This document shows, piece after piece, positions 1,794 through 63,900 of a stretch of DNA of 64,000 nt. Position 1 is the first letter of the stretch. Each line of letters begins with the position of its first letter. The stretch is from positions 20,481,873-20,545,872 of the forward strand of contig OZ020248.1 in NCBI GenBank assembly GCA_963971285.1, read 5' to 3'. A program made the position numbers and the translations under genes. Origin of the DNA: Astropecten irregularis (taxonomy: Eukaryota > Echinodermata > Asteroidea > Paxillosida > Astropectinidae). The notes below the pieces were generated by a model. The model was given only the letters and a program-made list of their open reading frames with translations, ran no database searches and was not told where the DNA came from.

Positions 1794-2126
1794 TCAATAC
1801 CTCTTGAGAAACTTGACTTCTTTGAAAGCCTCATCACTGTAGGATGCTTTCACAAACATGCTAAGTGAACCTTGGCAGAATTGGACCACTTTGAGATTCC
1901 GCAAGTTCAAGTTGACTTTTCTGGCTTGGTTTTTGAAAACATGCATCTTTGTGTGGTCCATTGTCACACATTTCATGTTTTTTTTGGCTGATGCAATGAG
2001 CTTCACCATATCTTGGAAGTCATAAATTGACATTTGCCTGTTCATTTTAGTAGTAATGCATCCATGAACAGAGTCAGCGACCATGAAAGTATGTCCAGCT
2101 TCAAAATATTTCATTGTAATAATCAT
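1794..2126 (-). pseudogene. DUF7869-like transposase-type fragment (C-terminal part)
   Basis: The 110-codon open frame opens with KYFEAGHTFMVADSVHG, a Gly-His-Thr motif followed by an acidic ADS and a His. Invertebrate transposon-borne proteins of the DUF7869 type or a close relative carry this arrangement. The later pattern (YDFQDMVKLI, then a basic stretch ending KEVKFLKRY) also fits the end of such a domain. No start context or upstream half is visible within 1 kb, so this is a remnant. A second, more complete member lies at 51.5-52.65 kb on the same strand. The exact family name is uncertain. Confidence 0.45.
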
Positions 2127-2129
2127 TCA

Positions 2130-2940
2130 ATTTATACACAAACAATGCATTGTTTAAAAAGTGTACCAACTAATACCGTTGTATTTGTTGTTGCAGCCAA
2201 TGCACATGACAGAGATTAGTGGTGTACTCTCATAGAAGACAATGAAATGTAAGCCATACACTATTAAATGTTATATAAATGATGAGTTGCCATGTCTGCA
2301 CCTGACAAGCAAGTCTATCTGGTGTTCAAGAACAAAGTATGATGGCACGTCACTCATTGATTCTATGCATAAAATAACGATAATCCCCATCTTTGTCACT
2401 CAGAAAAATTAACCATAAAGGATCATGACTGTGTTGATAACCCTCAATTTCTGCTACGTCAATCAACATCAGTTACAAATCCTTCTGTGTTATTTTCTAA
2501 TTTTTACTTCCTCAAAAAGGTATGTATTCTAATACCTAGATCCATACTTGGTGATCAGGTCTGAGACAAGTATTCGCACCATCTCGTAAGTCATTCTCAG
2601 AAATGCAGCAGGGTTTGTTAGAGGAATCTGTGAAACCATACTCTATAACTCATACTCATAACTTGTTATTCTCTCATTAAAGGCATTGCATACGTTTGGT
2701 AATGACTCTGAAAATTTATGGCAATAAAAACTTACTTGGTGAGAAGTACAGCTGCTTTGGATAGTATAATGCATATTGAGAAACGTTCAATTCGAAGTAC
2801 CGCGGTTATGGAAAAATATGTCACTTTTTATCTCCAAAAATTATGAATCTGAGAAGCGTTATGGCCGTAACGCTTCTCAGCTATTGACTAACTGTTCTCT
2901 GGCGTGAAATAACCGCTCTAGTTTGTCGCCAAAATCTCAA
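2130..2940. other. non-coding stretch with a 13-bp-stem hairpin
   Basis: I see no gene here. At 2849-2861 and 2868-2880 a perfect 13-bp inverted repeat (CTGAGAAGCGTTA and its complement) encloses the 6-base loop TGGCCG. A weaker outer pair (CGGTTAT near 2802, ATAACCG near 2908) suggests a small foldback or MITE-like unit of about 120 bp. There is no clear target-site duplication. Confidence 0.5.
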
Positions 2941-3034
2941 AAATGCTACCACCTTTTGAATTGAAACTTTCACAGGTTAGTTTTATGGTATATATATTCA
3001 ATTATATTGGTTTGAAACAAACAGTAGGCTCAAA

Positions 3035-3544
3035 TTACCAAACGTATGCAATCCCTTTAAACACTGCCAGTGAAAACCTCCCTGTCTTAATAAGTTCTTT
3101 TATTTCAAGTTTGAATTCCCTTTTACATACACCTTCAAGTAAATCATGCATTACATCAGGGACATAATTAGTGGTTACATGGAAGACTTGAAGCTCATTC
3201 AGGATGGATTCTTTCTTAATCCTAGTATTGGCCAAATTATTCAACATCTTCACCATAGTTTTGCTTTCAAGTTCTGGATCTGCTACACTTTCAGACCAAA
3301 CCACTGCCGTTCTGTGCGCTTTGCAATGTCTGCATGGGTAATCGGCAAAAAAAAAGATTCAGCCCATGAACACCAAGATTATCCCCCACAACTTGAGCAA
3401 GTGCGACATAAATTTTACCGGTGTACATGTCAGTGTACTGTTCACATCGATGCCATCAATCTCAAGAACCTTTATAGTCATCAATAACTCAGCATGATAT
3501 TGTTGCACTTGTACTTTTGTGATACATGTACCAACTACCAACAT
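3035..3544 (-). pseudogene. TNP2/EnSpm-like transposase fragment (PDVMHDLLEGV motif)
   Basis: Two overlapping minus frames read, in order, a Cys-His signature (YPCRHCKAHRTAV) and, about 60 residues later, TNYVPDVMHDLLEGVC followed by a Lys/Glu-rich helix. The cysteine cluster followed by PDxMHDxLEGV is typical of TNP2-like (CACTA/EnSpm-type) transposases in animals. The reading frame changes near 3345, so the piece is broken. Another TNP2-like fragment at 44.2 kb shows the more N-terminal region of the same kind of protein. Confidence 0.55.
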
Positions 3545-3669
3545 ATTATGTATACTTTGCTTTCAGTTGAAGTTCTGTCACGTCCATTTATTGTTACTAC
3601 TTGAGGTATTTCTTGCTGTGGAAATAAAATAGCCTTACATTTGCATTAATTATGCATTATGTCTTGAAA

Positions 3670-4489: not shown

Positions 4490-5071
4490 TCAAATTATTA
4501 TTGTGGTCTGGCAGCTGCCTACTGCAACCTGGCAAGCATCTGTGGGTAAGACTCTTGCCCGCCTAGCCGTCTGAATTTCTATTTGACGCTCTTTAAACTT
4601 CTTCCTGACATGTTTTACGGACTTCCTTGCTGCTGATAAAATTTTCTGCAGGTCGTCAATTTGGGCATCAATCCATTCATTTGTGTAATCAAGGAATGAT
4701 CTACATGTATTCACACAAGATACCTGCCAAGATGATAAAAAGTGGCAATACATTTTAGCAGTTGGATTAATTTGGTTTTGAAATTTCTTCATAAGGGCAA
4801 ATGGGATGTACCCTGCAACGTACCGTAAAACAACCTCCTCATATTTATCCAATGGTTGTTGGTTGGGAGTCTCTTCCTTGGGTAGATCTTTTGCATTTCT
4901 GGCTTTAATAAGTTTGCTGAAAACAGACTGAAGTAAGTAATTAAATGTAAGATGGGACTGGGTTGACATGTTAGGCTGTAATGTATTTATCATTATTTTC
5001 CATGGGCCAACTAGCTTACGTTTTGTGTTCACAAGCCCGACCCACATTGCCTCATACCCTTCTGGCTTCAA
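4490..5071 (-). pseudogene. uncharacterised transposon-associated protein fragment (EEVVLRYVAGYIPF type)
   Basis: This is a 193-codon minus open frame. The central part (LPKEET, then EEVVLRYVAGYIPFALMKKF) is a pattern I know from repetitive invertebrate proteins without a named function. It is followed by a Cys-containing segment and a Lys/Arg-rich helix. No nuclease, helicase or zinc motif is evident. The open frame runs further than most in this window, so this copy may be younger. Its relative at 3.7-4.0 kb is on the same strand. Confidence 0.4.
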
Positions 5072-5074
5072 CTT

Positions 5075-5880
5075 GATTGCACAAGAAATTGCAGGTCACA
5101 ATTTGTTTCTTTTTAACTGAAAATTGAGTTGTGATGAAGGAATGTGTTGCTGCTGTGGAAAAGCACAAACTTAAAGAACTGCACATTTCACTATTCTGAA
5201 TCTATTTTGTGTATTTGACCAGAACAAATATGACTTAATGTAGTTTTTCTTGTTTCGTTGATTGGATAATGACAAAGTACAATGATAAAAAGTAAAATGA
5301 TAAAATAATGTAAACATACAAAGTACACAAATAATTTAAAAGCTTGGATGTAACAAAAGAGACTGTGAACATTATTTCCTTGGAAAAGAGAAGACATGAT
5401 ATAACACAAGGTTCCAATATGTTATTGTGGAGTTTGTACTTTAACCTTAATACTTTGCCTGCCATCTCTTCCTGTATGTCCAGTCTCTTGGAAGTAGTCG
5501 TCTATGTCGTGTGTCATGTCATAATGTAACACATGATAGAGCTGCTCCACATGCACACCCATGCCGTTGATATTCAATTCAATTCAATTCACCTTTATTT
5601 CCATACTTGTTGAAGCTACAAGGCAAAATAAGAAAGTAATAAATTCCAAGAAGTTAATTTTAAACAGAATATATTTTTATAGATTAATAATGAAATGAAA
5701 CTATCAGCCTTTGTGAAATCTTTCATACCTTTTTCTCATAATCTTTTCTTTTTCCTTCAGTGCAACTATGGATAATTGCAACATGATCGATTCAAACTTT
5801 TCTAAGGGCATCATCAAATGCAGCATGCAACTCTCTGCTCTGTCTGTGGGGATAACTCCTGAAAATTGAAAGGTGAAGGA
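5075..5880. other. AT-rich spacer with a short ATTCA repeat
   Basis: I see no gene. At about 5570-5592 four ATTCA-type pentamers run into CACCTTTATTTCC. A short repeat joined to CTTTATT is the usual look of a non-LTR retrotransposon or SINE 3' end, and a comparable TTATTACCTTTATTGCAC stretch occurs at 23.5 kb. No reverse transcriptase is seen beside either one. Confidence 0.3.
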
Positions 5881-6569: not shown

Positions 6570-7328
6570 TCAGGTTACGACCATCCCTTCAGGTAACTTC
6601 TCAAAGCAGATCCGGGGACAATGACCCGGATGATTCCCTGAAGGATGTTATTGTCCCGGTGGCCCTTTTCTTCATGCTGCTTCAATCTGGTGGGCCAAAC
6701 TCGTGAAGGTAAGCCTGTCACGCTGACCTGGCTCACCAATCTGGCCGGAGACCTTGAACTCCCGGCGAATCATGCGGAGTACCTCCGGTGGTAGGGTGGC
6801 TTTCTGGGATTCTGTAGATGAGGTCGTCACTGGAGCTGGTTCAGCCTCTGGGGGTTTCTCCGAGGAGTCAGGGTTTGCGGGCGGGGCTGAGCAAGAAACT
6901 GCAGAATTTTGCAACATCCACTCGTCTGTAATTCTGACTGTCGTTAGTATTTGGTGGATGTAAATAAATATCGCAAACTCTGGCACACATGAAAGAACTT
7001 GGCAGTCTATCCCTATTGTCCTTTTTCGAGAACTCTCCACCACTGTCTCGGTTACAACTGCTTCGTCCAGGGCGAGCTGTGGACCAGTCAATCCATCAAT
7101 GATGCCATTCAATTGCAAAAGTAACTCCATACCTCCGTCTTCACTGTCCTGGACGTCATCACTGTTCAGGTGATTCAGTACTTTGCGGACCAGTCTCTGA
7201 TGGCCATTTGCTTTCTCAGCTGCATCTCCTGGCTCCACCCCCAATTGGTCACAAACTTGGAGGAGCTGTGGGATGGTGAGGCCACGTAATCTGGCACTCA
7301 CCTTCTCGATGCCTTCTACTACATCCAT
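6570..7328 (-). pseudogene. LTR-retroelement gag-like ORF with one frameshift
   Basis: A long minus open frame probably begins at the ATG at 7326-7328 (MDVVEGIEKVSARLRG). It carries an N-terminal helical region, then a Pro/Ser/Glu-rich linker, then REFKVSGQIGEPGQRDRLTF followed by TSLAHQIE. That C-terminal pattern is typical of gag-like proteins of fish and invertebrate LTR elements. A one-base shift near 6680 ends the frame, but the next frame continues recognisably (GHRDNNILQGIIR, PGSALRSYL) to about 6570. No protease or polymerase follows. This is one of the least decayed ORFs in the window. Confidence 0.55.
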
Positions 7329-7463
7329 GCTTTCTGCCAATAGACAAGACGATGATCTTGGTGACGTCACTGAATAAACTAAAATCAGAGCTGCTGAGAG
7401 GCACAACCTATCAATAGCGCCCTCTTGTGTCTATGACACGGGTGTAACACATTTACCTTGATA

Positions 7464-7934
7464 TCAATTTGAGCAAGTAAGAACTAGTCCATCTTTTCTT
7501 ACAAAAACTGCATATATATGCACAAGTAAATGGGGTAGGCATGGGCTACCATAACACTGTGTGTAAGTAATATCAATACTAGCATTGTCTGAGTTGCAAT
7601 TGTTAATGGATAAGTAACCTCTCAATATAATAACATCTTTGATTACCTTCTTGGTAGAATCCAACTTCAGAATTCTTCCATATGTTGAAGTGATGACCCT
7701 CTGCATTTCTCGAACATGTGCTGCAGCATAACAAATTTGTGCAGTCTCAAACCATGCTGCCAGTGGTGGTGGTTGGTACACAGATGGGGGCTGGTACTCC
7801 GCATCAACACCTGTCAGGATGCTACCACGTTTGTGCAACTCGCAATCCTTTAAGTACTCTAGTGCCTTCTTGTCCCACTCCTCACTATGCTGTTTGGCTA
7901 TTGCCTGCCTCATGAAGTTGGAAGAATTGCCCAC
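7464..7934 (-). pseudogene. DUF6729-like transposon protein fragment
   Basis: The minus frame encodes AAWFETAQICYAAAHVREMQ and then ITSTYGRILKLDSTKK. An aromatic WF, a long helix and (S/Y)GxILKxDSTKK are the marks of the DUF6729-type protein found in repetitive invertebrate and fish genes. The recognisable part stops at DSTKK, exactly where GTAATC follows (exon end 7647), so the rest of the open frame is probably intron. The upstream part (KDCELHKRGSILTGVD) may belong to the same exon. No downstream exon is seen before the hAT piece at 8.6 kb. Confidence 0.45.
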
Positions 7935-8352
7935 TGAGCGTCACTTAATAAGTGAAACAAGGCTCTTGTCAAGTGCAAAGCATTGTGTCAAAACAGCTGG
8001 GAATTTCCCACAGTGTTTTGGATCAAGCTGATCAAGCATTCCCGCATTCCAAGGACACTGTGTCTGCTTGCTCCTGCTGCAACATAGGTACTCACCCATT
8101 GACCTGTTTGTCATCATTGAGATCTTCCCATTATGGTGTCATCCTCCAAATGATCACTTTGAGAAGCCTTGTCTTCCTCTTGTGAATGTCTTTGTCATAA
8201 TGGCAGCATTATTACAGATGATGTAAAGTAATACGTTCTTGATGATGTAGTCATCATAGCTTTGAAAGCATCATTGATCTCTGTTCTCCTGTATAAGAGC
8301 CTGCAAATCTCTGGCAACACAGAAGATAAGATTTGAGAGACATTTCAGCTTG

Positions 8353-8640
8353 TCAAATATCTGAATCTAAGACATGAGCTGTTACTCCCATAAAACCTCT
8401 CATTTGTCTGTCCGACCAAATGTCTACTGTTGCAGACACACTTGTTGTTCCTTGAAGTTTTTCCTGAATCTTCTCTTGTTTATCGTGGACCATGTTGGTT
8501 AGAGGAGACCCCAGGAGATGAGGGAGCAGTGGACGTGGGTCTAGCAAACAAACCACTAGAAAGATGCTCAGTATCGTACCTGCTTTTGGCAGCTTTTGTC
8601 CCATCAGCCAGACAAACAATTTCTGTATAATTCACCTTTT
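8353..8640 (-). pseudogene. hAT transposase fragment
   Basis: The end of this minus frame reads EKIQEKLQGTTSVSATVDIW followed by SDRQMRGFMGVTAH. In BED-type hAT transposases the first catalytic Asp lies in the VDxW(S/T)(D/N)RQMRxFxG(I/V)T motif, so the acidic residue is kept here. Upstream codons (LTNMVHDK) fit the family; the beginning of the frame is less convincing. The 3.1-kb inverted-repeat element at 8.75-11.83 kb lies just beyond this piece. Confidence 0.65.
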
Positions 8641-8748
8641 GTCATTTTGCAGTTTGTTGTTTCTGAGGCAGATGTGGTGCATCATGGAGTGGTGTGAGGG
8701 GCGTGGGTGTACACACACTGTTTATAGAATATTTACAGATTTCAATAT

Positions 8749-11700
8749 GGGTCATTCCATGAAGTTTGATAACAAAGTGTGACATAAAAGCTGAAATTTC
8801 AAACTCAGTGATATATCATTATTTTATCCAATTTGGATACACTATTGATTGTACTTCACTAAACTAATAGTACTTTTGCAAAAACTAAAGTAGCCCAGAA
8901 AATAATGACGATTGTTAATGACGCATCATGTAGCAGGTTGTGGATGTAACTCCGGAAACCACATTCAAATATAATAAAGATTTCTGAAAGAAACAACATG
9001 CAATCAGGATTCAATTCATTTATTTTGGATGTTGGTAGGATACTTATAATAAGTAATTAAAAATGTAAATAAATATTGCTCATTTCCAACTTAACTGAAT
9101 GAACATAATGGAATCTTTTGAATTCAAAATATTTACCAGTACTCTGGAGTCACTTCTAATTCATATTCAATACAAGAAAAAATGCAGAATCATGAGAAAT
9201 GTCTTGTGTAGCAACATTTTACTCTTTCTGTTTCAGTATGACAAGTTTGCAGCAGATTAATACATGTACTGATAAATCCCAATGTTATTTGAGTGGTCAC
9301 ATTTCAAATGGTTGTGGATGTAACTGGAAACCATTCCTGTTACATCCGTAACTTAATTTCAACCATGTTCAAAATTCTTTACATTGGGCATCATAACTAT
9401 TGCATACACCCATCTACATGTATTTCAGTAGGTAATTCACAACCTTTACATTCTTAAGTCACTGAGGGCTACAAGGCTGGGCTGCTCTTGAACCAGGCAT
9501 TTAACAACCAACATGATAGTCACTTGAGACATCTGCTTTAAAAGTTGATTCACTATAAACTTGACTGAAAAAGATTTTATCAGACTCAGTCAGATTTGTG
9601 ACATAAAAAAGAGCAAGATGAGATTTTCTGGTTGTTAAAGCAGATTTTTTGAAATTACACACATGTAAATGATGTATTTGTACAGAAATGTTTTATGTTA
9701 TTTCCAAAAGTTTTGAGTGAGAGTATTATTTTTTTAATTTCTTATTGCATGTAAAACAAGATTTTTGCAATCCATAATAAGTAAGATATCATCTTAAAAT
9801 GTTGGCAAATATTGCACTGTCTACTGTCAATTATTTAAAAAAGGCAGCAGAAAAAACATCAATACAGAATCAAGTAAATAGACCTGTGCATGTAAGCCTA
9901 CTGCTCTCAGATTGGATGGCAGTTTAGCATGAGCAGAGGCAGGTGCATTTCGTATGCAGTGCTAGTGCCATGTGGCACGTAGACTTAGTATAAGTAGGGT
10001 TCATTTGTTTGGGTGAATTTGTAAATTCCGCGCGATGTGGGGAGATCCGGACGCCGGAGGAACGAGTTTGCACAGAACATTCTCCATTTTGTACCAGATG
10101 CAACCTGGAACAGTTGGCCATTTCCACAGTTGCTTGCCAGCGGACATCATCTTTTTACAAAACAGAGAAATTTAACGACAAGTATTGAAGTAACGTAGGA
10201 CTTCTGAGCAGTACTACATGTAGGCTAACGTGAGTACTAACGTTACTGGTGTAGGCTTTAATAGGTAGGCAAGGTTTTTTCGACTGGCCTACGTACCGTA
10301 CACTGCCTGACTCCGATACTGTCACTTGTCCAACTGAATATTTGTCAAATTTTAACTACGACGAGTCTCCGCCTTTCACGGAACAGACGAACAGATGATT
10401 TTATTGACGATGTTTTCATTCATCATATTCGCGTTTTCAATCAAACGTTATTATCATGCCTTCTTTGTCAAGACTGGTTCCTTGCTAACTGTGCGCCTCG
10501 AAAATCACTGGGGGACGAGTGGAACTAGACGAGCCAGCTAGCGAGCTAGCAACCATGCAAACAAAAACTCGGAATATACCATTTCAGATAGGGGTGTCAA
10601 AATAGTTGTATTTATTATTTCTTTCACTACACTGTAATAATAACCAGATTGTCATCAAAAACACAAACACAAGTAACTACTTAATGCGCATTTTATATAT
10701 TCTGATTGCACATATGCTCAATACCAGCTATTTCACCAGTTTAGAGTGTGATTCCTTACAACAGATTTTGGCACCTCCTATCACTGAATAATGGTACAGC
10801 CATCCTTGTAGTGATACGGACGTAACATTAGAAACCGTTGGGGGTTTCCTCGAATAAACTCGAAAACGGTAAAAAATCGGAAATTAATCACCATTTCCAC
10901 GGGTAGAATATCGTTAAGTTTGAGAATGTATTTGTTTTATGATTTGCTACTTTTAACTGAACAAGAACTGCTCTTAAATGCCACTTTTACTTCGAAGACT
11001 TTTGTGGTGACGTAACGTGGTCGTGGACGTACTGTGTGGAAGCTTCTGGAAACCACGTGTCGTGCAAGCGTTAAAATAACACAGGTTCGATCTTTGACAA
11101 GTCTTATTTGTAAAGCGGTTTCTAAGTCCCCATTTTGGTGGCTTGGACGGGTTCAGTCTCGACGAAGAATGCGTGCACAAGATAGTATAGAGCGACACGT
11201 GTTGCGGACGCAAAAGAATGATCGCGGAAACCAATCCTGTCAGATTTGTAAGAACGAGTTATATCTTTGCTACCGAAATGCTTCAAGGAATGTCAATTTG
11301 AGGAAATGTAATTCTGATTTATAGTTTTCGAAATGGCTTCTTGTGATTTGAAATCATTTTCAAAATAAAGAAAAAACGACTCCCGTTTCGGACGTATCGT
11401 GTTTATAATGTACGGAAACCACCTGTTACGTCCGTAACCATTTACAAAATAGGGTGTCCTTCGAAATGAAAGGGGTAATAAACAAAATCGATAAAGGGAT
11501 CGTAGAGGGTTCACACTGAATGTCAAGAAAAATTAATGTGCTATTTTGTACAATGATTCTTAAGCCAGAAATATGATTCATCAAATGACGATTTACTATG
11601 TCACAAAAACAACCATTTTTATGGTACCGGAAACCAGTATTTCATGAATTATTCTGACAAAAATGTTTTTCCAAATACAAATAAATTATGTTTACATTAT

Positions 11701-11829
11701 ACCTCTGTGCCTAATCCCTTGATGATATAAATTAGACGGCCTAAATATTTTAGCTTCCTGTGGTTTACGCCAACGTTTTTTTAACATGTGCAAAATAACC
11801 AGGTGTTCTCCAACTTCATGGAATGACCC
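8749..11829. mobile_element. 3.1-kb non-coding element with 18-bp terminal inverted repeats
   Basis: The left end GGGTCATTCCATGAAGTT (8749-8766) is matched perfectly by its complement at 11812-11829. ATAT at 8745-8748 and again at 11830-11833 is a possible 4-bp target-site duplication. No protein is recognisable inside, so the element looks non-autonomous. At least five internal sites resemble GGAYGTAAC spaced before GGAAACCA (about 8940, 9313, 10818, 11027, 11390-11440), in the manner of repeated transposase-binding sites. Its outer 13 bases are shared with the element at 59.0-61.5 kb. Confidence 0.75.
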
Positions 11830-11833
11830 ATAT

Positions 11834-12214
11834 AGAAGGCTGAGGAATGGCTTGCTTCTCAATTATTATAAAGGCATTTCTTGATTCGAGATGGCTTGCA
11901 CTGCTCAGTGAGAGCACGAACGGCTGAGGATGAGTTTTAGGATCCACCTCCTTCAGGTACTGTGGCATGTTGATGATATCCTGCAGAATTTCATCATTTT
12001 AATTCAATCATTTTGTTGTGTCCCCTAAGACATTCCATGTAGTGATTCTCATGCAAGTGGGTGAAATTTAAATGCCATAGGATTGACTCACTTTCAGAAT
12101 ATTCCATTTGTTTGGCCTTTATGTTACCAATCCTGTACTATACCTTTAATAACAATACATGTAGATGGTTTTCATTTGTTTGTATACACAATTAGCAACA
12201 AAATTTTAAGAAAA
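11834..12214. other. flank of the inverted-repeat element
   Basis: On the minus strand 11,870-11,995 reads an open stretch (EILQDIINMPQYLKEVDP, then a Cys/Lys-rich end) that stops a few codons before the element. It may be another piece of the interrupted hAT unit, but I cannot place it. The rest is AT-rich, with nothing supported. Confidence 0.25.
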
Positions 12215-12216: not shown

Positions 12217-12290
12217 CAATTGACAGTATTCAGGAGGACGCTGGTTTGAATTCTCGCTCCAGTCAATTTTTCTTTGTTCACTTTTCAAAA
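12217..12290 (+). repeat. 5'-truncated tRNA-derived SINE copy
   Basis: The segment ATTCAGGAGGACGCTGGTTT, then GAATTCTCGCTCCAGTCAA, then TTTCTTTGTTCACTTTTCAA matches, with few changes, the complement of 34,590-34,660. There the same tail follows a tRNA-like head. GGTTTGAATTC is the relic of the pol III B box (GGTTCGAATCC). This copy lacks the A-box half. It is the only recognisable element in the window that reads on the plus strand. Confidence 0.6.
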
Positions 12291-12423
12291 ATAAATTGAG
12301 TCACTTGAGTGTGACTTCAATATTATTTTTCCAGTTAAAAGTTCTGAAGACATGCTAAGTTTTACATGCAGATATTTTTTACCTTAATATGATAGAACAA
12401 AAACAAATAACAACACTACTTAC

Positions 12424-50470: not shown

Positions 50471-50480
50471 TAACACTTAC

Positions 50481-51290: not shown

Positions 51291-51294
51291 TCCC

Positions 51295-51478: not shown

Positions 51479-51479
51479 C

Positions 51480-52650: not shown

Positions 52651-52654
52651 TGGC

Positions 52655-52975
52655 TTGTGGCATACGATGAATGGACATAATTTACACTACATCTTCCGAA
52701 ATGTTGAAAGAGCAAGCACTCTGTTACTTTACTGTGATCTTTACTGTGTCTAGTGAATTTTTCTCTTTCCGAGTTGCAGGCTGAGATGCATGCTTCTTTT
52801 TGACCATTTGCCTGAGTCTCTGAACAACAGACACAGAAGATGCTTGTGCTGTATATAAGTACATGAATCTGCACAAAAATACATCTGCCTACTCAAAATG
52901 GTTTTAAAATCTTTGCAGACGCAATGAAAGGATGCGATACAGAACTAAAACAATTACATTTATGCTATAAATAAC
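52655..52975. other. presumed intron between the THAP exon and the DUF7869 part
   Basis: No domain is recognised. The minus frame 52,647-52,874 (SACNSEREKFTRHSKDHSKV) may be a short exon, but its borders are unclear. Confidence 0.3.
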
Positions 52976-53278: not shown

Positions 53279-53439
53279 CTTACACACCGTACATGTACGT
53301 AAACGTAACACAAAAGGTTAACGTTGCATGTACTTTCATGACAACGTTGTCCGAACATCCGGGTAACTATAGCTGTCGATAGAGGGTGTATTCTATGAAT
53401 AGCTCGAGCGTGGAGCCCTATTTGTTGGTTAATCAATTT

Positions 53440-54035
53440 TGCTAATTTGTTGGGCAACTGCATATCATTTTATGACCAATTGTTGGCCTCCGACTTTGCT
53501 CCAGACGCACCCCAACCAGTCCTCCACGAGTGCATCGTTCATCCAGCCCTATGGGTGCACTCGTACAATGACGCCAGCAGGAAACTTGGTCTTCGGTATG
53601 GTCTTCCGCTTGAAAACCACAAAGGGTGGCAACTTCCCTCCATCGGCGGTACAGGCCAACATCACGGTGAACCGGTCCTTCCTGTTGTCGTAACGCTAAC
53701 ACTCTTAACACCACGCTGTGCAATAGTAGCACTGTACGGGATGTAAAAAGTTAGCGGCGTCTGGTCCGCATTGCCAATGCGGGAAAGGGGATAGCCATGC
53801 TCACGTCGCTGTCTGATGACGTACCGTTGGAAAGAGATTGTCTTGTCCTCCACGTCTTCAGGCAGCCGCTGGGCGATGTGGGTGCGACGCCGGACAGAGA
53901 GCCCATGGCAGCCCATGAACTTGCCCGCCCATGATGTACTGGCCTTGAAGTCGACGATGTTCAGTCCACCTGTAACAGCCTTTGCCTTCAGCCGGAGAGC
54001 AACGGTGGAGATGGCGTGGCGTGATAAGTCTGATT
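53440..54035 (-). pseudogene. pogo/Tigger-like DDE transposase pseudogene
   Basis: The minus strand reads DLSRHAISTVALRLKAKAVT, then DFKASTSWAGKFMGCHGLSV and RRRTHIAQRLP (CENP-B type helix-turn-helix), FQRYVIRQRREHGYPLSRIG, NADQTPLTFYIP (first catalytic Asp), GVKSVSVTTTG, a frame change, then DNRKDRFTVMLACTADGGKL, PPFVVFKRKTIPKTKFPAGV and, after a TAG, GWMNDALVEDWLGCVW. The order is that of the pogo/Tigger DDE_1 domain. The second Asp and third acidic residue should follow but the frame ends at about 53,440. Confidence 0.85.
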
Positions 54036-54266
54036 CCTACTGTCATAGCCAGATAATTTGAGAGCTGCCTGAACAACAGTATCAAAGGATGATGGTTTCA
54101 CCATATCCTTTGCCTGTTGAATACTGTTGTTCAGTTGTCTCGAAATATCTAGAACCTTTGCGAGAGTCCTAATCTTCTCTCTGGCTTTATCTTTACTTCT
54201 ATTAGAATTGCTCTTGCCAAGAACATGACCCCCCAACCTGCAAAATGTCTTTATCGTTTCTGACAA
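54036..54266 (-). pseudogene. uncharacterised transposon-associated fragment (VVQAALKLSGYD)
   Basis: The minus frame reads RTLAKVLDISRQLNNSIQQA followed by KPSSFDTVVQAALKLSGYDS. The (F)DxVVxAxxxLxGYD motif belongs to an unnamed repetitive protein of cnidarians and molluscs. It runs straight into the pogo fragment with overlap of frames, so two element types abut at about 54,035. Confidence 0.35.
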
Positions 54267-54269
54267 CTA

Positions 54270-55140
54270 ATGAAATTTTATCATATTTCATGTCCCGGAG
54301 GGTGTCCTCCATTTGGACTGAATTTTGTAGGAAGGAGCATTCGCCCTTCTCTTACGTGACTCTTAGTAGAGCTGCCCTGTTTACTTCTGTAGGGGCATGT
54401 CTCTTTATGATTTCCACAGATAATGTCGATGGAAATATTCAAAGCAGTTGCTGCAAGGGATGTAATCATTCACGGTATGCTTTGCCTTTGTGTTGTCTCT
54501 TGGCCTTTTACGAACGATTAAATCATTTTCTTTGTTCTGATGCACTAATAAATGCAACTTTAAAATAATTTTGATGGAAAATCTTTGTGGAATACCATTT
54601 TAGTATACATTGTACAAGTACTGAACAAATGCTCACATAAATCAATTAACTTCCAGAACTTACCAATTTGCTATACTATGTGCCAACACATCCAAGAGTC
54701 TTTCTGCCTGAAAAAGGAGTTGCAATTGTTAATAGAAGTTAGAACATAGATAGGTTCAAAAATAGGTTTTTCTGTTCGATGGATGTCAGAAGTTTTTTAT
54801 GCTTTTCCCACACACAGTGGTTTTTGAGTGCAGATATCGATTTTATTATTTATTTGCCACAAAATAACAGCTCCTGGAATTTTTTTTAAAAGTTTTTTTG
54901 GTATGTGCTTGAACCGCCATTTGTTTTTTTTGATGGGTGCGTTGTCCAAAATTATGTTATTATTGTAAATGAAAAATGTTGAAGTTTTTTCTACTGTTTC
55001 AAAATGTTGTCCCGTCCCGCATAAATGAACTAGAACAGCAAAGCTGTCATGGCTCGCTGCAGCCTTAAGTGAATTACCAACCTGATAGCAAATCAACCAG
55101 AATGATGCTCCCCCATAAACTCAATTTTAAAAAAGGTGTC
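54270..55140. other. no supported gene
   Basis: AT-rich with several T runs. The 54,797-55,096 minus frame is Lys/Ile/Asn-rich and shows no domain. Confidence 0.4.
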
Positions 55141-55154
55141 AAAGTGATATGTAT

Positions 55155-55815
55155 TTTACCTGTGGGGTACTGTCATTCTCAGGAGTAATGTTACTATTAG
55201 CATCATCCACCAGGGAATCATTGTTTGCATTGCTGGCATCCATGCTCATGTCCTCGGTGTTGCTATCGTCATTGTTGACAGGATCTGAATCTATAGAGTC
55301 TGTGGAGTTTAAGCTGTATCACATAGGATCTCCCTGGGAGTATGACCGTTCCTAAACCTCTTAATGACTGAGGTCATTATATGCATAAAGACAACATCTT
55401 CGGATGAATTCTTAATTGATGAGTGAGATGAGACTTGACCAGGAGATGAACAGACTTCAACATCTTTACATTTGGTTTCTTTTGGTTGATGATGCTGGAC
55501 GTGACAAAATATGGGGAATATCAACGGTGGAGGTTTTAACAGCTTGTGCATAAGACATAGGCTGTGCGGTGAACTGGTGCTTACATCTTGAGCTGGTGTT
55601 GATGGAGGTACTGATGAGGTACTGCTTTTACAAGTAGCTGGCTGTGGTTGAGAGTCTTTTATAGATGTAGGCCTACATTTATGATTTTGAAACCTCTGGT
55701 ATGAAATATGTTTTATTGCAGGATGGGCAAAATGCGCACTTATGCTTCTGAAAGTTTTGGGGGCTTTTGTACGTCTTGTGACAGAATGAGCACTCCATGG
55801 TCATGATGATCTCCT
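55155..55815 (-). pseudogene. C2H2-like zinc-finger gene fragments with an acidic exon
   Basis: The minus strand at about 55,810-55,690 reads MTMECSFCHKTYKSPQNFQK followed by HKCAFCPSCNKTYF. Two CxxC pairs with spaced His resemble a degenerate C2H2 pair. A frame change leads to RFQNHKC and a Ser/Pro-rich tail to about 55,590. At 55,320-55,160 an acidic stretch (NNDDSNTEDMSMDASNANND) ends STPQ before GTAAAA, like an exon. I cannot name the gene. Confidence 0.35.
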
Positions 55816-55969
55816 TCAGCAAAAGTTGTGTAAAAAAATAGCCAAGTACTTCCTTCAGAATTGCTGTCTGTTAAAAAGGGAAAGAATCTATAAAAAACTT
55901 GTAATTTGTGTAAAAGATGATATGGCAAAGAAAAACATGCTGAAGAAAAAACCTTGCAAAGAGGATTTC

Positions 55970-56276
55970 TTATGAACTATCTGTTGCATTTTCTTTGGCC
56001 TCAACCTCTGCTAATGCCTGCAGCAGGCTCTCATCATCACTACTAGTGATTCCAGCAGATACATTTTCAGACATGCTAGTACATGTAGTTGCTATTTCAG
56101 CACTTGTAGAGAGAGATTTGAAATGATCTTCATTCTTTGGTGTGGATGTTCTCCTCTGCTGTCGTAGGAATTTGGCGTTTTTTTCCAAGGAACGCATCTT
56201 CTTATTAATACGTCTGGATTGGACTAGGTCTTTAAGAGTAACGTTGATGAACGTACCGCTACTCACGGTCGCCATT
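55970..56276 (-). CDS. small ORF of unknown function (about 102 aa)
   Basis: Starting at the ATG at 56,274-56,276 the minus strand encodes MATVSSGTFINVTLKDLVQS, a basic region (RRINKKMRSLEKNAKFLRQQ), a Ser/Thr-rich middle and an acidic Ala/Glu helix before a stop. The charge layout could be a small nuclear protein or the N-terminal exon of a longer one. The upstream 110 bp is rich in palindromic CGTACG and TACATGTAC motifs, which may be promoter or simple sequence. I recognise no family. Confidence 0.3.
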
Positions 56277-56399
56277 TTCACAAAATACGTACGGCAAATT
56301 CGTACGTACAGTACAATGTACATCATGTCATCATGTACATGTACATGTACGTCTAGTACACTCTGCATATAATGGGAGAACATGGATGATAAGTGTTGT

Positions 56400-57310
56400 A
56401 GCTACCATCCCAGTGTAAATAAAGCAGCATTAGCATAATTGGTGAAGTTTGTGTTGCTGTCCTTATAAGATTTGGATGTTGGAACACAAATGATGTCACG
56501 TAACAGGAACCTAAATTAAATGTTCTATCAATACCTAGAACTGTCTATGATTTATCATCATTACAAATATTTACAATATCTTTAATTTGCTCTTCATTAT
56601 GCAATATAATTGATGGTGGTATTCCCTTGCCTTGGATGATTTCCTGTATAATTGGACTGTCATGAATCATATTTATAACTGATTGTACATCATCTGCTGT
56701 GTTGTTTCTACTTTGACCAGGTCTCTCTTCAGCATTACAAGCATGTTTCATGTTGATCTCTGGGAGCGTTGGCTGGATTATTGTTTACAAGACTTTGATC
56801 AATATTACTAGGGTTACAGTTTTCTCTTCTGACACCATTCTTAATTTCCTCACGAGTTGCCTTTGCAGTACTGATAAAATTAGAATGACCATGCTTTCGA
56901 TTACCTCCGCTGCTCTGGCCAGTCCTAGAAGCTTGCGTTGAGCTTCCTGCTCTGCTAACTTCCTGGTGATCTCTGGTGAATGTGATGCAGTTGATCTCAC
57001 ACTCCTACCCGCACTTCCACTATGACCTGACTGCGATTTTGTGTCCACAGGTCGCTGATGCTAATCTCTATCTAAATTATGTTTTCTTACAATTGTGGGC
57101 TTTTGTTTAAGCTCTGCCACATATTGATGCTGAATTGGAGTAGATAAATGTAGTTCGGACTTGAACCAGTTAAGAGATGGGATGTGGTCAGCAATGATAT
57201 TCCCAATGTGTGTCATCCAGTCATGTTTCAACTGTCAGTTGTCTTCAATGGTGGGGGAGAAATTCAGCAATGTCAACATCTTCAATAGTAGAACCTGGGT
57301 GATCATTGCT
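56400..57310 (-). other. unassigned minus-strand frames (possible gag-like or host exons)
   Basis: 56,545-56,751 reads a frame with DDVQSVINMIHDSPIIQEII. 56,785-57,048 is Ser/Arg-rich (SGHSGSAGRSVRSTASHSPE) and then helical (KLAEQEAQRKLLGLARAAEV). 57,110-57,230 reads WMTHIGNIIADHIPSLNWFK. None has a diagnostic motif. They lie directly downstream of the kinase-like ORF on the same strand. Confidence 0.25.
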
Positions 57311-57339
57311 CAAGTGATGAGAAGAAACTCTGTTCTGAA

Positions 57340-57957
57340 TTGCTATCATTTGTTTACCACTACCGGTACCGGTACTCCTTTATAGAAAGACATCTGACAT
57401 TCCCCATAAGTGCCAGACCCAATGATTTTACCTGGTGGAATAAGGTCTCTAGTCAGCATCATAGAAGGTGGAAGACCTCCGGTATAATGTTTGATCACAG
57501 TTGGTCTTGTATCTGCATCTTTTCTTGCCTGCTCTAGCTGTTGGTCTAAAGCGGCAACTCTTTCCCGAAGCACCGCAACTTCAGCGGGCGTGACGTGAAC
57601 TCCTCAAAGGATGTTGTCCACACCATTAAGTAATGGTGGGATGTCTGCACGGTTCTTGCCCCAACTGCTTGGCACAAATATTTCGTAGGACACGGTACCC
57701 TCTAATCCTTCCTCGTCATTGGGCGCTCTATGCTCAATTCCATGATAAACCCATTGCTGACAGGGGTTTCCTTTTGATGGGCCAGGCTTCCCGAGTTTGA
57801 GACTCTTTCCAAAATATTTTCTGAGAAGTTTACCTCTTCCACGCGAACTGAGAGTAGGAATAACTTCCTCTATCTTAGCGTGTGCCAACATTACTGGAAC
57901 TTTGGCCTTAGCGCTTTCTTTAAACAACCGGAAAATATGACTATCGGCCGTATCCAT
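57340..57957 (-). pseudogene. protein-kinase-like ORF, N-terminal part, one in-frame stop
   Basis: The frame starts at ATG 57,955-57,957 (MDTADSHIFRLFKESAKAKV), is open for 117 codons, meets TGA at 57,604-57,606 and remains open in the same frame: VAVLRERVAALDQQLEQARK (coiled coil), LTRDLIPPGKIIGSGTYGEC and SFYKGVPVPVVV. GSGTYGEC is a kinase Gly-rich loop, and V-V-V before Lys is strand 3. A duplicated CCGGTA near 57,363 adds two residues, and a shift after VVV removes the catalytic Lys from the frame. The rest of the kinase domain is not present downstream. Confidence 0.5.
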
Positions 57958-57999
57958 GATGTTCCGTGATGTCGATTGTGATAGTTATGTTCACTGCTT

Positions 58000-58500
58000 T
58001 TTTAAACCCTATTCCAACAAGAAGGGGGCATACATACACCAAGAAATATTTAACACAAACTGCAGCTCAATCCCCTTGCCACTTGTTAGACCATAGAGTA
58101 AGGAATTTCTTACTCTATGGTTAGATCAACCTCCATGACCTCGCATACCAGTAACCCTTGGACAGCGTTCCCACTTGTTTTGGGGAAAGGTGGATCTGAC
58201 AGGTCAGAGTTGACGGGGAGAGCGCACGTTCTGCTTTCCATGCTGGGTAGGCATGATCAGCGTGTTCCATAGCAAGATCCATGGGCGATCGGCCACGTGA
58301 ATGCCCGCCAAAATGTTATGTCTGTCCCACTGACACAAACTGCAGGGGTCGAAATTAAAAAATTTCCTTACTAGCCGGCAGGGACAGTGGAAAAAAAAGT
58401 TACTGGCCCGCCAGAAAATCTGGTGGCCCAATGCCATTTTGTAATTTTAATCTTATTCAGCACTGATCAATACATAACTCATAACTTAGGGGAAGGAATT
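58000..58500. other. spacer with a near-perfect palindrome
   Basis: ACCATAGAGTAAG (58,090-58,102) and its complement CTTACTCTATGGT (58,109-58,121) flank GAATTT, a 13-bp-stem hairpin. A minus frame at 58,204-58,437 is Trp/Phe-rich (GHQIFWRASNFFFHCPCRLV) but unrecognised. Confidence 0.5.
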
Positions 58501-58519
58501 AGTTAAAAGTCGCTATCTG

Positions 58520-59003
58520 TCATTTCTTCTTCTGTCTGTGGTTTGCTGTCATCTTCTTCTGGTTCGATGTCTGTATCCTCTTCTGGTTCGCTGTTAGTAT
58601 GAGTATCTGTTGGTTCATCTTCGTCACTCTCTGAACTGTCAGTGCGATCTGGTTACCTCCCTCATCAGTGTCCTCATCTGAGATTGAATGGGAGGAAAAA
58701 GAATCTTGATGTTTTTGTTTCTTTTGTGGACCATATGGGATTTGACTAGGTCTCCTTTGCCTCTTCCCCGCCGATATCCAGTCATTGATCGCTGGAGTTG
58801 GGTCGAATTGTAGGATTTCTTCAGAATGTAGCATTATCATGAGCAAGTCCGATAGGATGTCAGGTTTCAACTTTGCGCGCCAATCAGTTTTCACCATTCA
58901 CATTTCAGAAAACCCTCTTTCAGCATCTGCTGAGTGCGCAGGTAGGGTTAGGATCAGATCAATTAAGGCCATAGCATTTTGGCAGTCCAGGCCACAAGAT
59001 GAT
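58520..59003 (-). pseudogene. hAT transposase C-terminal (dimerisation) domain
   Basis: The minus strand from the edge of the foldback element reads SCGLDCQNAMALIDLILTLP, AHSADAERGFSEM, an in-frame TGA, then MVKTDWRAKLKPDILSDLLM and an Asp/Glu/Ser-rich tail. LPAHSADAERGFSxMxxxKTxWRxxLxxxxLSDLM is the hATC domain of ZNF862/TTF-type hAT proteins. The foldback element at 59,004-61,478 begins a few codons upstream of this sequence; the remaining N-terminal part is not recognisable beyond it. Confidence 0.75.
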
Positions 59004-61478
59004 GGGTCATTCTATGTCAAATCAACCAGAGGTCCCCAGGTGACCCTTTCAGATTTACTTGAAACTTTGTCATAATGTTCCACTATGGCCAAAATGGATA
59101 CAAAGAAAAAATTAACTTCATACTCCTTATCGTTTCCGAGATACAGTCGATATTAGTCTATAGGTGCATTTCTTTCACCAAAATCAAATAGGACCAAAAC
59201 AATCCATTTCTAAAGGATTGGCAATCATCTAAATTTGGGTTCAGGTTAAAAAAAATCATAAAAGACCACAAAAGAGCCTTTCCGTCATGCGAGTGGTTCC
59301 CCCTGTGGACAGTTAACAAAATATTTGAACTTTCAGTATTTAAACATTTACATTATATCTACTTACAAATCAAATTTCAGCTTTGGTACTCAACTCTTTC
59401 ATGGTTAGGTTGCATTTTGAAAATTACACAGTTTTTCACATTTTCGGAAATATAAAAGTGACTTTAGATCCAGGCATTCAACAAAATTACCATATTCTAG
59501 CTACTTGCTTTCAGAATACTGCATAGATGTTGTTAGTTGCAGTGGTTTACTTAATAAATGCTGGTAGGTTGGCTTGAATGTCATTGAAGTCTGCTTTAGA
59601 TAATGTGTACTGGCGGCCCCCTCGTCCCTGCAGTTCTGGAGCACTGATAGTACATTATCACATCTTGAAATGGTATCCTACACTCACTGCAGGAGTCGTT
59701 TGGCCAGGAGAGTGTATTTGACTTCTTAGCTCTTCTCATTAACTTCACAAAGACATCATTTTGTTCCTCGGATCTCTCAAGTATGGTGCCAACGTACCAT
59801 TCATTGTCATATATGCATGCCGTGTATCGACCTGGTTGGTACTCTGTTGCATCAGTATGATGATGATCTATTTCTGCATCATCTCCAATGGAAACGATAC
59901 TGTTATCAACGTCATCAGAGAGTCGTCGCATCTTAATTTGCCTCTTCCCATCAGCCACAGGAACAAAACTATGATGTGATCTAGTACCTGATATAGTCTT
60001 TGATGAGAGGAATCTATTAGCCAGCTTGTACTTATCTGCATTAGATTTCACATCACCATTGCTTTACATAAAAGAACTTGATGCCCTTGATGTTTTTATC
60101 AGCCCATGCTCTCTTAACTTTATGTTGAGAAACTTGGAACTCCTCCATTGTCTTCTTGATAGTCCAGCTTGATGGTACAAGAGAAAGTAGCTTCATTTTC
60201 TCTTTTCTGAGGCATTACAACACTTGTCTTTTAGAAGTTGAACAAATATGTCAAGGTCTTGAGACTCTTGACACTTGTCACAAGGTTTCTTAATATCTGC
60301 AGTCGGTAATTCTTCTGTTGACACATCCAGGACTTCTGCTACCTTTGCTGTTAGTGCAGAATGTATTTCTCTGACTTTTCTATTGCCATAACTAATTTTA
60401 TCTCGCTGACTGACTGGTTTGAGAGAAGAACACCCAAGCAATGAGGAGCTGGTGTTAAGAGAGTCATGTGAGGTGTTCATGAGATCGCAGTCCTCATCTG
60501 TTGAAGATTTGTCTGAGTCAAACTCTTTGTTGTAACAATTTCATGTTTCAGCATCAGGATTTCAAGTCAATACAATATTAACAACTACAAATCACCTTGA
60601 ATTTGTCCAATAAATAAGACAAATGTATTAAAATGATATACATTTATGAATTATGACACTTGTGTGTGTTAATTAGGTCATTTATAGTGCATGCAAGTAT
60701 GTCAAATCATTGAAAACCATGAAAAACTGTGTAATTTTCAAAATGCAACCTAACCATGAAGGAGTTGAGTACCAAAGCTGAAATTTGGTTTGTAAGTAGA
60801 TATAATGTACATGTTTAAATACTGAAAGTTTAAAATATTTTGTTAACTGTCCACAGGGGGAACCACTCGCATGACGGAAAGGCTCTTTTGTGGTCTTTTA
60901 TGATTTTTTTTAACCTGAACCCAAATTTGGATGATTGCCAATCCTTTAGAAATGGATTGTTTTGGTCCTTTTTGATTTTGGTGATAGAAATGCACCTATA
61001 GATGATTTATCTGAAATTTGGGATCCATGTGACCCCTGATGAGGTCACAGGGTGACCCCAAAAATTATTCAAATCACTCCCGGCAAGAATAAAGTGTGTA
61101 TTTTAGGGGCAAGTAACTTGAAATGCAGACATAATATCTACTATTTAAGGCCAGATTATGAATCTAGGGCCAAATGTTAATAAGAATACAAATTTCCAGC
61201 TCTGTAGCTGTTACCGTTATCAAGTAATGGGCTCTCAAATGTGGGAAAAAAGCATGATGACGCGTTTCGCGATCTGGCCAGGTGGGCGGAGCTAAAAAAG
61301 GGGGGTTTTGAGCAAATTTCAAATGTCTGTATCTCGGAAACGATAAGGAGTATGAAGTTAATTTTTTGTTTGTGTTCATTTTGGCCATAGTGGAACATTT
61401 TAACAAAGTTTCAAGTAAATCTGAGAGGGTCACCCAGGAATATTTCAGAAATTTGGTTGATTTGACATGGAATGACCC
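59004..61478. mobile_element. 2.5-kb element with long inverted arms
   Basis: The left end GGGTCATTCTATGTCAAATC (59,004 onward) pairs with the complement of the right end at 61,478. The pairing then goes on: CTCAGATTTACTTGAAACTT and ATACTCCTTATCGTTTCCGA near both ends, and 59,165-59,437 pairs with 60,719-60,990. The right arm has about 325 bp (60,990-61,315) that the left arm lacks. No target-site duplication is evident at the borders. A transposon ORF lies between the arms on the minus strand. The outermost 13 bases, apart from one, equal those of the element at 8,749-11,829. Confidence 0.85.
59547..60480 (-). pseudogene. ORF of the foldback element (unnamed transposon protein)
   Basis: Minus-strand order: a Ser-rich start with CDKCQE (60,480-60,200), a frame change, MKLLSLVPSSWTIKKTMEEF with QVSQHKVKRAWADKNIKG (helix-turn-helix-like), a frame change, LANRFLSSKTISGTRSHH, YTACIYDNEWYVGTILERSE, KKSNTLSWPNDSCSECRIPF with QDV, a frame change, then SAPELQGRGGRQYTLSKADF and a natural stop at 59,547-59,549. 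This C-terminal module (YDxxWYVGxxxE, SWP...C...PFxDV, GRxYxLSxxD) is shared by a large family of cnidarian, fish and invertebrate transposon proteins. The nuclease core is missing between the second and third blocks. Confidence 0.55.
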
Positions 61479-61479
61479 T

Positions 61480-62040
61480 AAAGGCTATAACGGAGCGTGG
61501 AAAAACACGCACGGGGAGTATTTATTGGGCTGAAGGTGGGCTCAATTACATTTTCATCAATGGAGGAACTTTTCATTTTTCTTTAAAGGTTCCTATCCTT
61601 TTGAATTTCCTGCTCTAGTTTCTCACAAATGTTCTTGGCCAGCATGTGCAACTGCACAACTTTCTTGGTCATGTTGGTATGCTGCTTCATTGTTTGATTG
61701 AGCGCCAGGATGTCATCGATTGTCCTTGGCTGGTATTTCTTGACCACCCATGTCTTTGATGAAAAGTCAGCATCCCTGGTTTTGGCCTTATGTAAATATG
61801 CAAGGCGAAAGCCCCCTTTGGCAAAAGGCTTCATCTCTTAACAAAATTCCACTGTTCTGGGCCTGCTACACCATCTCAGTTCATTGATGTCGAAAGAAAA
61901 CAGTTCTTCCTCTTCTTGATGTAGTCATCATACCCACCATATTTACTCCACCTGGCTGGTACATGTATGGGGATACAATTGGGACCATGTTTGGCTCTTT
62001 CACTGTCACTGTCCAAAGGGCAGATGTTAGTGTCTGAAAT
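61480..62040 (-). pseudogene. alpha-kinase domain fragment
   Basis: After an acceptor TTTTAATTTCAG (about 62,037) the minus strand reads GPNCIPIHVPARWSKYGGYD, a frame change, DINELRWCSRPRTVEFC, a TAA, then MKPFAKGGFRLAYLHKAKTR, KTWVVKKYQP and TMKQHTNMTKKVVQLHMLAK. A W...V..F...KPFAxGG(M/F)RxAY start, VVKKY with the ATP-binding Lys, and the HTxxxVQxHxLAxxxxxx helix are the N-terminal lobe of atypical alpha-kinases (eEF2K type). The C-terminal lobe with GN(L/M)GxxG is not seen. The frame ends at QKDRNL. Confidence 0.65.
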
Positions 62041-62049
62041 TAAAAAATA

Positions 62050-62780
62050 AATGAATAAATAAATTTAGAAAAATGGAAAAACAAATATATGTATAACATA
62101 TATATATGAACACGAAAACCTGCGTGTCCAACTGTGTTGCATCGAGATACATGTATAACATTTTACTGAAAAATATTTAAAATATTTTTTTCTGACAGTG
62201 TATTCTTCTGTTTTAAAATGTCATTAGCGTATCCATTCAAAAAAAGCATTTCCATGCTAAAATAGACAAAAATAGTATTTAAATTTTTTTTCCGGCCTAA
62301 TGTACAGCAATCATGCTAACTGTCACAAACTCATCATATCAAAAGAAGCGGTTTTGGGTTAATGATCTCAAACATAATAGCAGCAATGAACAATCCTAAA
62401 CTACATGTACATGTATGATATTGAGGGGAGTTGATACCAACCTTCTCATAGTTTTTTGTAGCTTATTAACATATTTTTCTTGCCACGGAAGTTTATCTGC
62501 GGTATATAATGATTCAATGCAGAGAAAACACTAAAAATTAAAGATACACAGACAGACAGACACAAACAAACCATCAAGCAAACAGACAAACACATTATAA
62601 TACAATGCACCAAAAAAAATCAGAAATTGTTTTTCTGAACAACTACAGCAGGTAGAATGTAGTAGGTAGTACCCTATAACAAAACACATTCACTGTCACC
62701 AACTTAAATATTAGGTAGAAAGATAAAATGGATCAGTAGAGAAAAAGCAGAATTAGTTCACAGATTTTTGTGAATTCCCT
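62050..62780. other. AT-rich spacer
   Basis: It contains simple AT runs, ACATGTACATGTA (62,403-62,415) and a short GACA/AACA-rich run (about 62,550-62,595). No gene is seen; it may be intron. Confidence 0.4.
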
Positions 62781-62785
62781 TTATA

Positions 62786-63900
62786 CCTTTGTGAGATGGC
62801 TTTGTCATTTTAGCTTGGGCATGCTCAGATTCTCTCCATTCATGCACATCTTTGAGTGATACTGATAAAAGAGCAAAGTAAATCCCAAAGTATAAGACAA
62901 CAATGATAAAACATAGATGAAGGTTGTTGTGAAATAAAGAAATTTGCACACCAACAGCAAAAGGTTAATTTTTCAGGATTTGACCTTCAGACATTTTACC
63001 TGGAATTTTTTTAATATCTCAAAAACATGTTCAGTACCAACAGACAAAATGACCCAAAAGTAATCCTAAATGTTTTGCACTAAATTGGTTGGACCAATAG
63101 ATTCTGTAAGATTCTGATAGTAAATTTAATTTTCTATTTAGTCTTCTGCAAAACATCAAAATAAAAATCTTGTTTCTTTTGAATACCTGAGCATTCACTG
63201 CAGATTTCTTGAAGAGCTTTAGTAGAATCATCTTGAACCCTCACAGCTCGGTCCATAAGGACTACAAGGCTGGCACCTGCATGGACAACAGTACATTTTG
63301 ATGTTGATAACTGGGATTATAATACCTTTGTGCACTACTTCAGCTGAAAATCAATTTCAACAACAACATTTTGCTGGCGCATGTAACTCATGCAGCCATG
63401 AACCTCTATCATACTGTACAACCATAATGGCATAAATTTCTTCCAATGGAACTGTTTTGAAATATTCTCATGTAAAGATACAAAGTTTTAAAGTGTGTTT
63501 CAACAGAATATTGTTACCAATATCTTCATCCTTGCGGTGGCTATAATGGATAAGGGCATCAGTCAAGAGGTCTTCTCTGTGCGAAGGTGTCATTTCCTTA
63601 GTTATCGATGCAAACCTCCGCAGATATGACCAAAGTCTCTCCATGACTTCACCATCTGTTAAACCATAACCGGACCGCCATCTGGTACTGTAAACCACCT
63701 TTGCCAATCATAAAATCATAAAGTGAATGATTAAAAAACATGACATCAAAACAGAAGCTCCTGATACTATACAATAATATTGGTATACATGTAGTTTCAC
63801 ACACAAACAAGACTGACATTTTCTCAACAGATACATACCTGGCATGACATCTGGTGTCCATATGCGTGAAATACAGGAAGAGCCATATCTAGCTCATGCC
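62786..63900 (-). CDS. KDZ (Kyakuja-Dileera-Zisupton) transposase gene, four exons, 5' end outside or unclear
   Basis: Exons on the minus strand: about 63,900-63,839 (ALPVFHAYGHQMSCQ, donor GTATGT), 63,518-63,698 (GYGLTDGEVMERLWSYLRRF, ASITKEMTPSHREDLLTDAL), 63,187-63,276 (ASLVVLMDRAVRVQDDSTKA) and about 62,865-62,787 (DVHEWRESEHAQAKMTKPSH, donor GTATAA). AIPxFHAYGHxxxCQ, G(F/Y)GLTDGExxERLWSxLRRF and SHRxDxLTDAL are the third-acidic-residue region of KDZ transposases. These exons show no stop or shift and all have GT/AG borders, which sets them apart from most remnants here. Upstream exons would lie to the right of the window. Confidence 0.7.

Follow-up and report, generated by a model that had tools for sequence, protein, structure and literature searches.

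Flamenco and flamenco-like loci of Drosophila are long tracts of transposon fragments lying mostly in one orientation, and the available part of their description reports extensive insertion in a single direction, opposite to transcription (PMC10643416). The same source ascribes their long terminal repeat (LTR) bias to Gypsy elements alone and notes that insertions in the sense direction may introduce poly(A) signals, and a hidden Markov model tool, FlaHMM, predicts flamenco-like clusters, according to the accessible part of its account (PMC11400887). Here we describe a strong one-way array of coding fragments of mixed families in Astropecten irregularis. The window, by which we mean the whole stretch of DNA analyzed, is 64,000 nt long (contig OZ020248.1 of assembly GCA_963971285.1, positions 20,481,873 to 20,545,872, forward strand). 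One-way orientation is a sequence feature that this window shares with the flamenco-like uni-strand clusters that produce PIWI-interacting RNAs (piRNAs). The Drosophila loci have a Gypsy-driven LTR bias and demonstrated piRNAs, whereas at this locus DNA transposons of several families carry most of the bias.

Other described systems resemble the window in part. Intronic LTR elements and long interspersed nuclear elements (LINEs) in mammals show an excess of copies opposite to the transcription unit, a bias attributed to selection; in the available text it is strongest near exons and DNA transposons were excluded from the analysis (PMC3088655), whereas in the window a single strand carries every coding fragment found across ∼60 kb, with no host exon in sight. 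In Aedes albopictus, strand-biased piRNA clusters are alike in that most are read from one strand, but they are defined by small-RNA mapping, reach up to 10 kb, and in 164 of 643 cases contain a transposon; one-way insertion orientation is not described in the part of that account available (PMC5041409). In the sponge Amphimedon a ping-pong signature is reported, together with multi-mapping piRNA clusters whose positions tend to coincide with transposons, and the accessible portion of its small-RNA account does not describe one-way clusters (PMC6211395).

Three tests were applied equally to both strands. For the Pfam search, six-frame translations were cut into 3,330-base pieces with X at stops, giving the same 54 frame pieces per strand over positions 1200 to 40871 and 41800 to 61781 (positions 1 to 1199, 40872 to 41799, and 61782 to 64000 lie outside), at E ≤ 0.05. 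On the minus strand there are 21 family rows; 14 reach E ≤ 1e-3, and 10 exceed Pfam's curated cut-off (DUF6729, TNP-like_RNaseH_N twice, ZSWIM1-3_RNaseH-like, DEAD, Integrase_H2C2, Transposase_21, SWIM, DDE_1, and DUF7869); MULE, rve_3, HTH_Tnp_Tc5, and THAP reached E ≤ 1e-3 yet fell under the cut-off, and the ZSWIM and MULE rows are one spot. The seven weaker minus rows (Helicase_C, ZapB, UBA_MELK, MLVIN_C, DUF6498, RIP_P131-like, and Zn_ribbon_TOP3B; E 0.0098 to 0.048) we treat as noise. A preliminary description of this DNA had looked to a profile search to reveal any plus-strand transposon fragments that it had missed, and in the 54 plus-strand pieces there is no row at E ≤ 1e-3; Phage_Bbp19 (E = 0.011) and Med6 (E = 0.013) are the plus rows at E ≤ 0.05, and both are under the cut-off. 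The places supported at E ≤ 1e-3 are as follows.

7863-8095, minus strand: DUF6729 fragment (Pfam E 5.7e-20)
12406-13236, minus strand: P-element transposase copy A, disrupted by stops (Pfam TNP-like_RNaseH_N, E 1.6e-7), presumably THAP9-like
16723-16902, minus strand: MULE/ZSWIM-type transposase fragment (Pfam PF21056, E 1.6e-7; MULE, E 6.3e-4, under the cut-off)
20280-20438, minus strand: DEAD-box helicase fragment (Pfam E 5.5e-6), which we take to be RecQ-like
37993-38115, minus strand: LTR-retrotransposon integrase zinc-binding domain (Pfam Integrase_H2C2, E 1.4e-8)
42209-42713, minus strand: integrase core fragment (Pfam rve_3, E 3.2e-4, under the cut-off), with repeats
44223-44408, minus strand: Transposase_21 (TNP2) fragment (Pfam E 3.1e-8)
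45136-45228, minus strand: SWIM zinc finger fragment (Pfam E 8.7e-5), assumed to be MULE-type
50478-51209, minus strand: P-element transposase copy B (Pfam E 3.6e-21)
51983-53236, minus strand: THAP domain (E 7.8e-5; 23.8 bits, where the cut-off is 23.9) and then DUF7869 (E 3.4e-8), probably one element
53495-54051, minus strand: pogo-like transposase, with a Tc5-type helix-turn-helix (HTH_Tnp_Tc5, E 2.5e-4, just under the cut-off) and then DDE_1 (E 6.8e-9)

The two homology-free tests point the same way. Stop-to-stop open reading frames (ORFs) of at least 100 amino acids (aa) number 44 on the minus and 18 on the plus strand when tandem arrays are avoided (51 and 22 with arrays included), whereas the whole window, simulated 60 times with a first-order Markov model, yields 9.7 on minus (SD 3.0, maximum 16) and 16.8 on plus (SD 3.9, maximum 25). 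Minus ORFs are thus 4.5-fold over simulation and plus ORFs are at chance level. When ORFs of at least 80 aa are counted in 16 bins of 4 kb, with the arrays kept in, minus has the larger number in 15, the exception being positions 8001 to 12000. A chance coding shadow is ruled out, since plus ORFs occur at the simulated number and minus ORFs above it. Skewed composition is ruled out as well, because by itself it would make long ORFs more numerous on plus than on minus, and the excess is only on minus.

Protein-likeness was scored frame by frame from amino acid composition, with simulated DNA as the reference and average protein composition taken from a typed table. At a threshold of 14 bits or more there are 37 minus and 3 plus segments, where 15 simulations average 1.5 and 0.2; at 12 bits or more there are 52 and 5 (simulated, 4.5 and 0.9), and at 20 bits or more 12 and 0. 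Each of the three plus segments overlaps a minus one: 6787-6906 overlaps 6675-7424, 28641-29000 overlaps 28598-28825 over about half of its own length, and 53755-53931 overlaps 53671-54036. The one-way array is therefore confirmed as real, and no orientation switch of coding fragments occurs inside the window, nor does the array visibly end there. The claim that all recognizable coding fragments read on the minus strand thus holds up in all three tests: 14 Pfam rows against none at E ≤ 1e-3, an ORF excess confined to minus, and 37 protein-like segments against 3.

Several minus-strand fragments carry no Pfam name, and one at the right end lies outside the scan.

1432-1602, minus strand: protein-like segment close to the array's left end (composition score 22; no Pfam match)
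3041-3322, minus strand: transposase-like fragment with the motif PDVMHDLLEGV (ORF, score 15; no Pfam match), presumably tnp2/KDZ-like
4493-5095, minus strand: unnamed fragment with public relatives (two at E ≤ 0.001 among 28 candidates)
6675-7430, minus strand: gag-like open frame of 252 aa, holding the best protein-like segment (6675-7424, score 45); the reading as gag is our assumption
57349-57957, minus strand: protein-like segment with a glycine-loop motif (composition score 33; no Pfam kinase match), which we take to be kinase-like
63471-63707, minus strand: open frame outside the Pfam scan, presumably a KDZ-like transposase fragment

The best relative of the fragment at 4493-5095 has 50% identity (E 1.5e-33), and both of its relatives are without names. 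The array had been drawn out to position 63900; scored protein-like segments extend from 1432 to 60057, and the remainder rests on the last open frame listed. Of the families originally named, hAT, Harbinger, KDZ, RAG1-like, kinase, BEN, and DUF4806 have no Pfam row at E ≤ 0.05 within the scanned positions, outside which the KDZ-like frame at 63471-63707 falls. The 17 kb between 20890 and 37990 hold protein-like minus segments, yet Pfam matches nothing there at E ≤ 1e-3, plus or minus. A PDB sequence search with three minus frames from ∼49 to 64 kb and one from 20.9 to 35.9 kb returned nothing at E ≤ 0.1, which has no bearing on strand because no plus frame was searched there; the plus ORF at 19118-19510, the one searched of 54 plus ORFs of at least 80 aa, returned no homologue. 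Searches of viral contigs and genome contigs confirmed no related locus.

The ∼45 fragments originally named cannot be counted as independent events, since some are repeated copies, as shown by the integrase-bearing sequence:

28988-31014, minus strand: two repeats of the integrase-bearing sequence at 42.3 to 42.7 kb (self-blastn, ∼91 to 95% identity, same orientation)

The self-comparison, from which 26 of 50 matches lying wholly within tandem arrays were set aside, shows several tandem repeats in the same direction as well, and the two integrase places might be duplicates of one sequence. By our own count there are 11 separate Pfam-supported copies, all minus (DUF6729, two P, MULE, DEAD, two integrases, Transposase_21, SWIM, DUF7869-THAP, and pogo), with p ∼0.001 if they are independent. 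Merging the 13 Pfam places by distance leaves 7 to 8 blocks (p 0.016 to 0.008), and merging protein-like segments leaves 5 to 18 (p 0.06 at 3 kb to 8e-6 at 1 kb), although merging by distance is too strict where neighbors are of different families.

These counts bear on the explanation that ∼10 insertions, in effect independent, came to point the same way by chance or regional clustering, the window being a striking one picked from many. The value for the 11 copies, those for merged Pfam blocks, and the upper one for protein-like blocks leave room for it, but the 15 to 18 protein-like blocks that remain when segments 1 kb apart are kept separate give p 6e-5 to 8e-6, and we regard it as unlikely.

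The repeats raise a different explanation, in which one or a few large minus-reading units (multigene elements, local duplications, or pseudogenized gene arrays) were broken up and their orientation inherited. Same-direction duplications at 28988-31014 and 42209-42713 fit such a composite, as do tandem copies at 15175-15589, 44631-44982, and 49096-49323, the same-direction adjoining of THAP with DUF7869 and of HTH with DDE_1, and the mere 5 to 7 blocks left by 3-kb neighbor merging. A composite is possible but rather improbable, as the fragments bear about eight family names (P, MULE/SWIM, integrase, Transposase_21, pogo, DUF7869-THAP, DUF6729, and DEAD), the two P copies have different closest relatives, and the self-comparison shows no enclosing repeat pair (the short inverted-repeat scan covered spans of up to 9 kb only).

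The P copies are the only fragments aligned to relatives. By tblastn, copy A (13 kb) matches P0003 at 74% and P0008 at 37%, with in-frame stops, and copy B (51 kb) matches P0002 at 69% and P0008 at 47%, with a stop; P0003 matches copy B at 55%, P0002 matches copy A at 45%, and P0004 matches both at ∼52%. The two copies are unlike, with different closest public relatives, and both are decayed, with in-frame stops. The P fragment has eight relatives, one of them from the sponge Corticium candelabrum (42% identity over 46% of the query).

Two further candidates found no support. For a lone element with both of its terminal repeats within the window, the self-comparison gave no repeat pair enclosing the whole array, although its ends could lie outside the window. 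For an array of telomeric retroelements, no reverse transcriptase family appeared at E ≤ 0.05 in the scanned frames. As regards cDNA capture, no intron was demonstrated in the gag-like frame or the other frames inspected.

The one-way orientation concerns coding fragments only, because a relative of a tRNA-derived short interspersed nuclear element (SINE) reads plus.

12223-12288, plus strand: tRNA-derived SINE relative (86% to 34597-34661, inverted)
34620-34692, minus strand: tRNA-like SINE head (Rfam tRNA, 42 bits; ARAGORN)

The plus-strand relative is the sole directional insertion recognized on plus. That a single SINE tail reads plus had been stated before, and the relative does read so; its inverted partner, however, reads minus with a tRNA-like head, so short noncoding insertions go both ways.

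We consider antisense retention along a plus-strand transcript, whether or not a piRNA cluster, to be the best single reading, albeit a tentative one. The locus would be a graveyard of transposons from many families that inserted in both directions along an extended plus-strand transcription unit. Copies sense to the unit would bring poly(A) and splice signals and be lost, and antisense copies would stay. Should the transcript be fed into the piRNA pathway, every copy kept would also yield antisense small RNAs silencing its own family, adding positive selection, which is how uni-strand flamenco-type clusters are thought to work. We infer the plus-strand transcript, the selection on orientation, and the production of piRNAs. 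In favor of the reading, transposon fragments lie in one orientation, a feature of uni-strand piRNA clusters, several families take part, the two P copies have different best relatives and both carry in-frame stops, a SINE relative is tolerated on plus, and the antisense bias of intronic LTR elements and LINEs is ascribed to selection (PMC3088655). The narrower proposal, that this is a uni-strand piRNA source locus with one-way selection on many DNA-transposon families (P, pogo, MULE, TNP2, and DUF7869-THAP), we consider doubtful.

Sequence signs of a plus-strand transcript are mixed to unfavorable, and none is obligatory. Polypyrimidine-CAG acceptor-like sites number seven on plus and none on minus, and we count these in favor of antisense retention, although the plus strand is pyrimidine-rich. 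Several observations weigh against it. AATAAA occurs 62 times on plus, where third-order simulations give 46.8 (SD 7.1), second-order 36.5, and first-order 33.7, and is thus somewhat overrepresented rather than depleted; on minus there are 43 against 37.0 simulated (SD 5.4). Few early termination signals on the transcribed strand, an expected though not strictly defining feature of clusters, are therefore not seen. In the 13,052 bases where neither strand has an ORF of at least 60 aa, GC skew is −0.017 and AT skew −0.008, so there is no transcription-like asymmetry there; the 21,274 bases that lie outside minus ORFs are slightly skewed (GC, −0.051; AT, −0.026). Donor-like GTRAGT is commoner on minus (28, versus 19 on plus). 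The Gypsy-driven LTR bias that marks flamenco-like loci in the Drosophila sense was not found, as 7 of the 11 copies read as DNA transposons and 2 as integrases (DUF6729 and DEAD are unassigned). DNA transposons thus carry most of the bias here, whereas in flamenco-like clusters, as far as the available text goes, it is Gypsy-only among LTR elements (PMC10643416), and the intron orientation study, in its accessible part, left out DNA transposons (PMC3088655).

That same study bears on the explanation that the window lies within a very large intron of an ordinary host gene transcribed from plus, its antisense bias reflecting selection against sense insertions with no small-RNA role. The antisense bias known for intronic LTR elements and LINEs in mammals lends it some credence, but no exon-like segment is seen on plus, where there is no Pfam match at E ≤ 1e-3 and all segments of at least 14 bits overlap minus ones, a null that would miss exons outside the window or too short to detect. 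We regard a giant intron as quite improbable.

If the window is such a piRNA source locus, orientation-selected transposon memory would reach back further and more widely than the Gypsy-trapping flamenco loci, and should small RNAs confirm it, the locus would be an orientation-selected archive against DNA transposons. When antisense trapping arose could then be tested by running this strand-bias scan on other genomes. Should chance or a composite account for the array instead, it would warn that 60-kb one-way fragment blocks can arise without a cluster.

The window has several other local structures. A scan for 14-base inverted repeats with 7- to 10-base target duplications over spans of up to 9 kb gave three hits, and the same scan on eight simulations gave none in seven and one in the other. 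Two of the three hits lie within an inverted pair at 59004-61478, a foldback-like element whose arms match at 97% (59157-59438 and 60720-61002) and 86% (59004-59146 and 61327-61478). Tandem repeats comprise a 91-bp unit at the extreme left of the window (1-1179; 13 copies, 96% matches), a 38-bp unit at 27180-27637 (12 copies, 98% matches) that overlaps minus open frames, and an array of ∼192-bp units at 40474-42128 with a higher-order pattern of 384 to 390 bp. ARAGORN predicts a tRNA-Lys on the plus strand at 61518-61610, which Rfam does not list even at E ≤ 2, and on the minus strand at 62740-62850 there is a subthreshold Rfam match to the U6atac minor spliceosomal RNA over the full model length (25.5 bits, against a cut-off of 33). 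Across the whole window, CpG has an observed/expected ratio of 0.45 and TG and CA are in excess, a pattern consistent with methylation in an animal genome.

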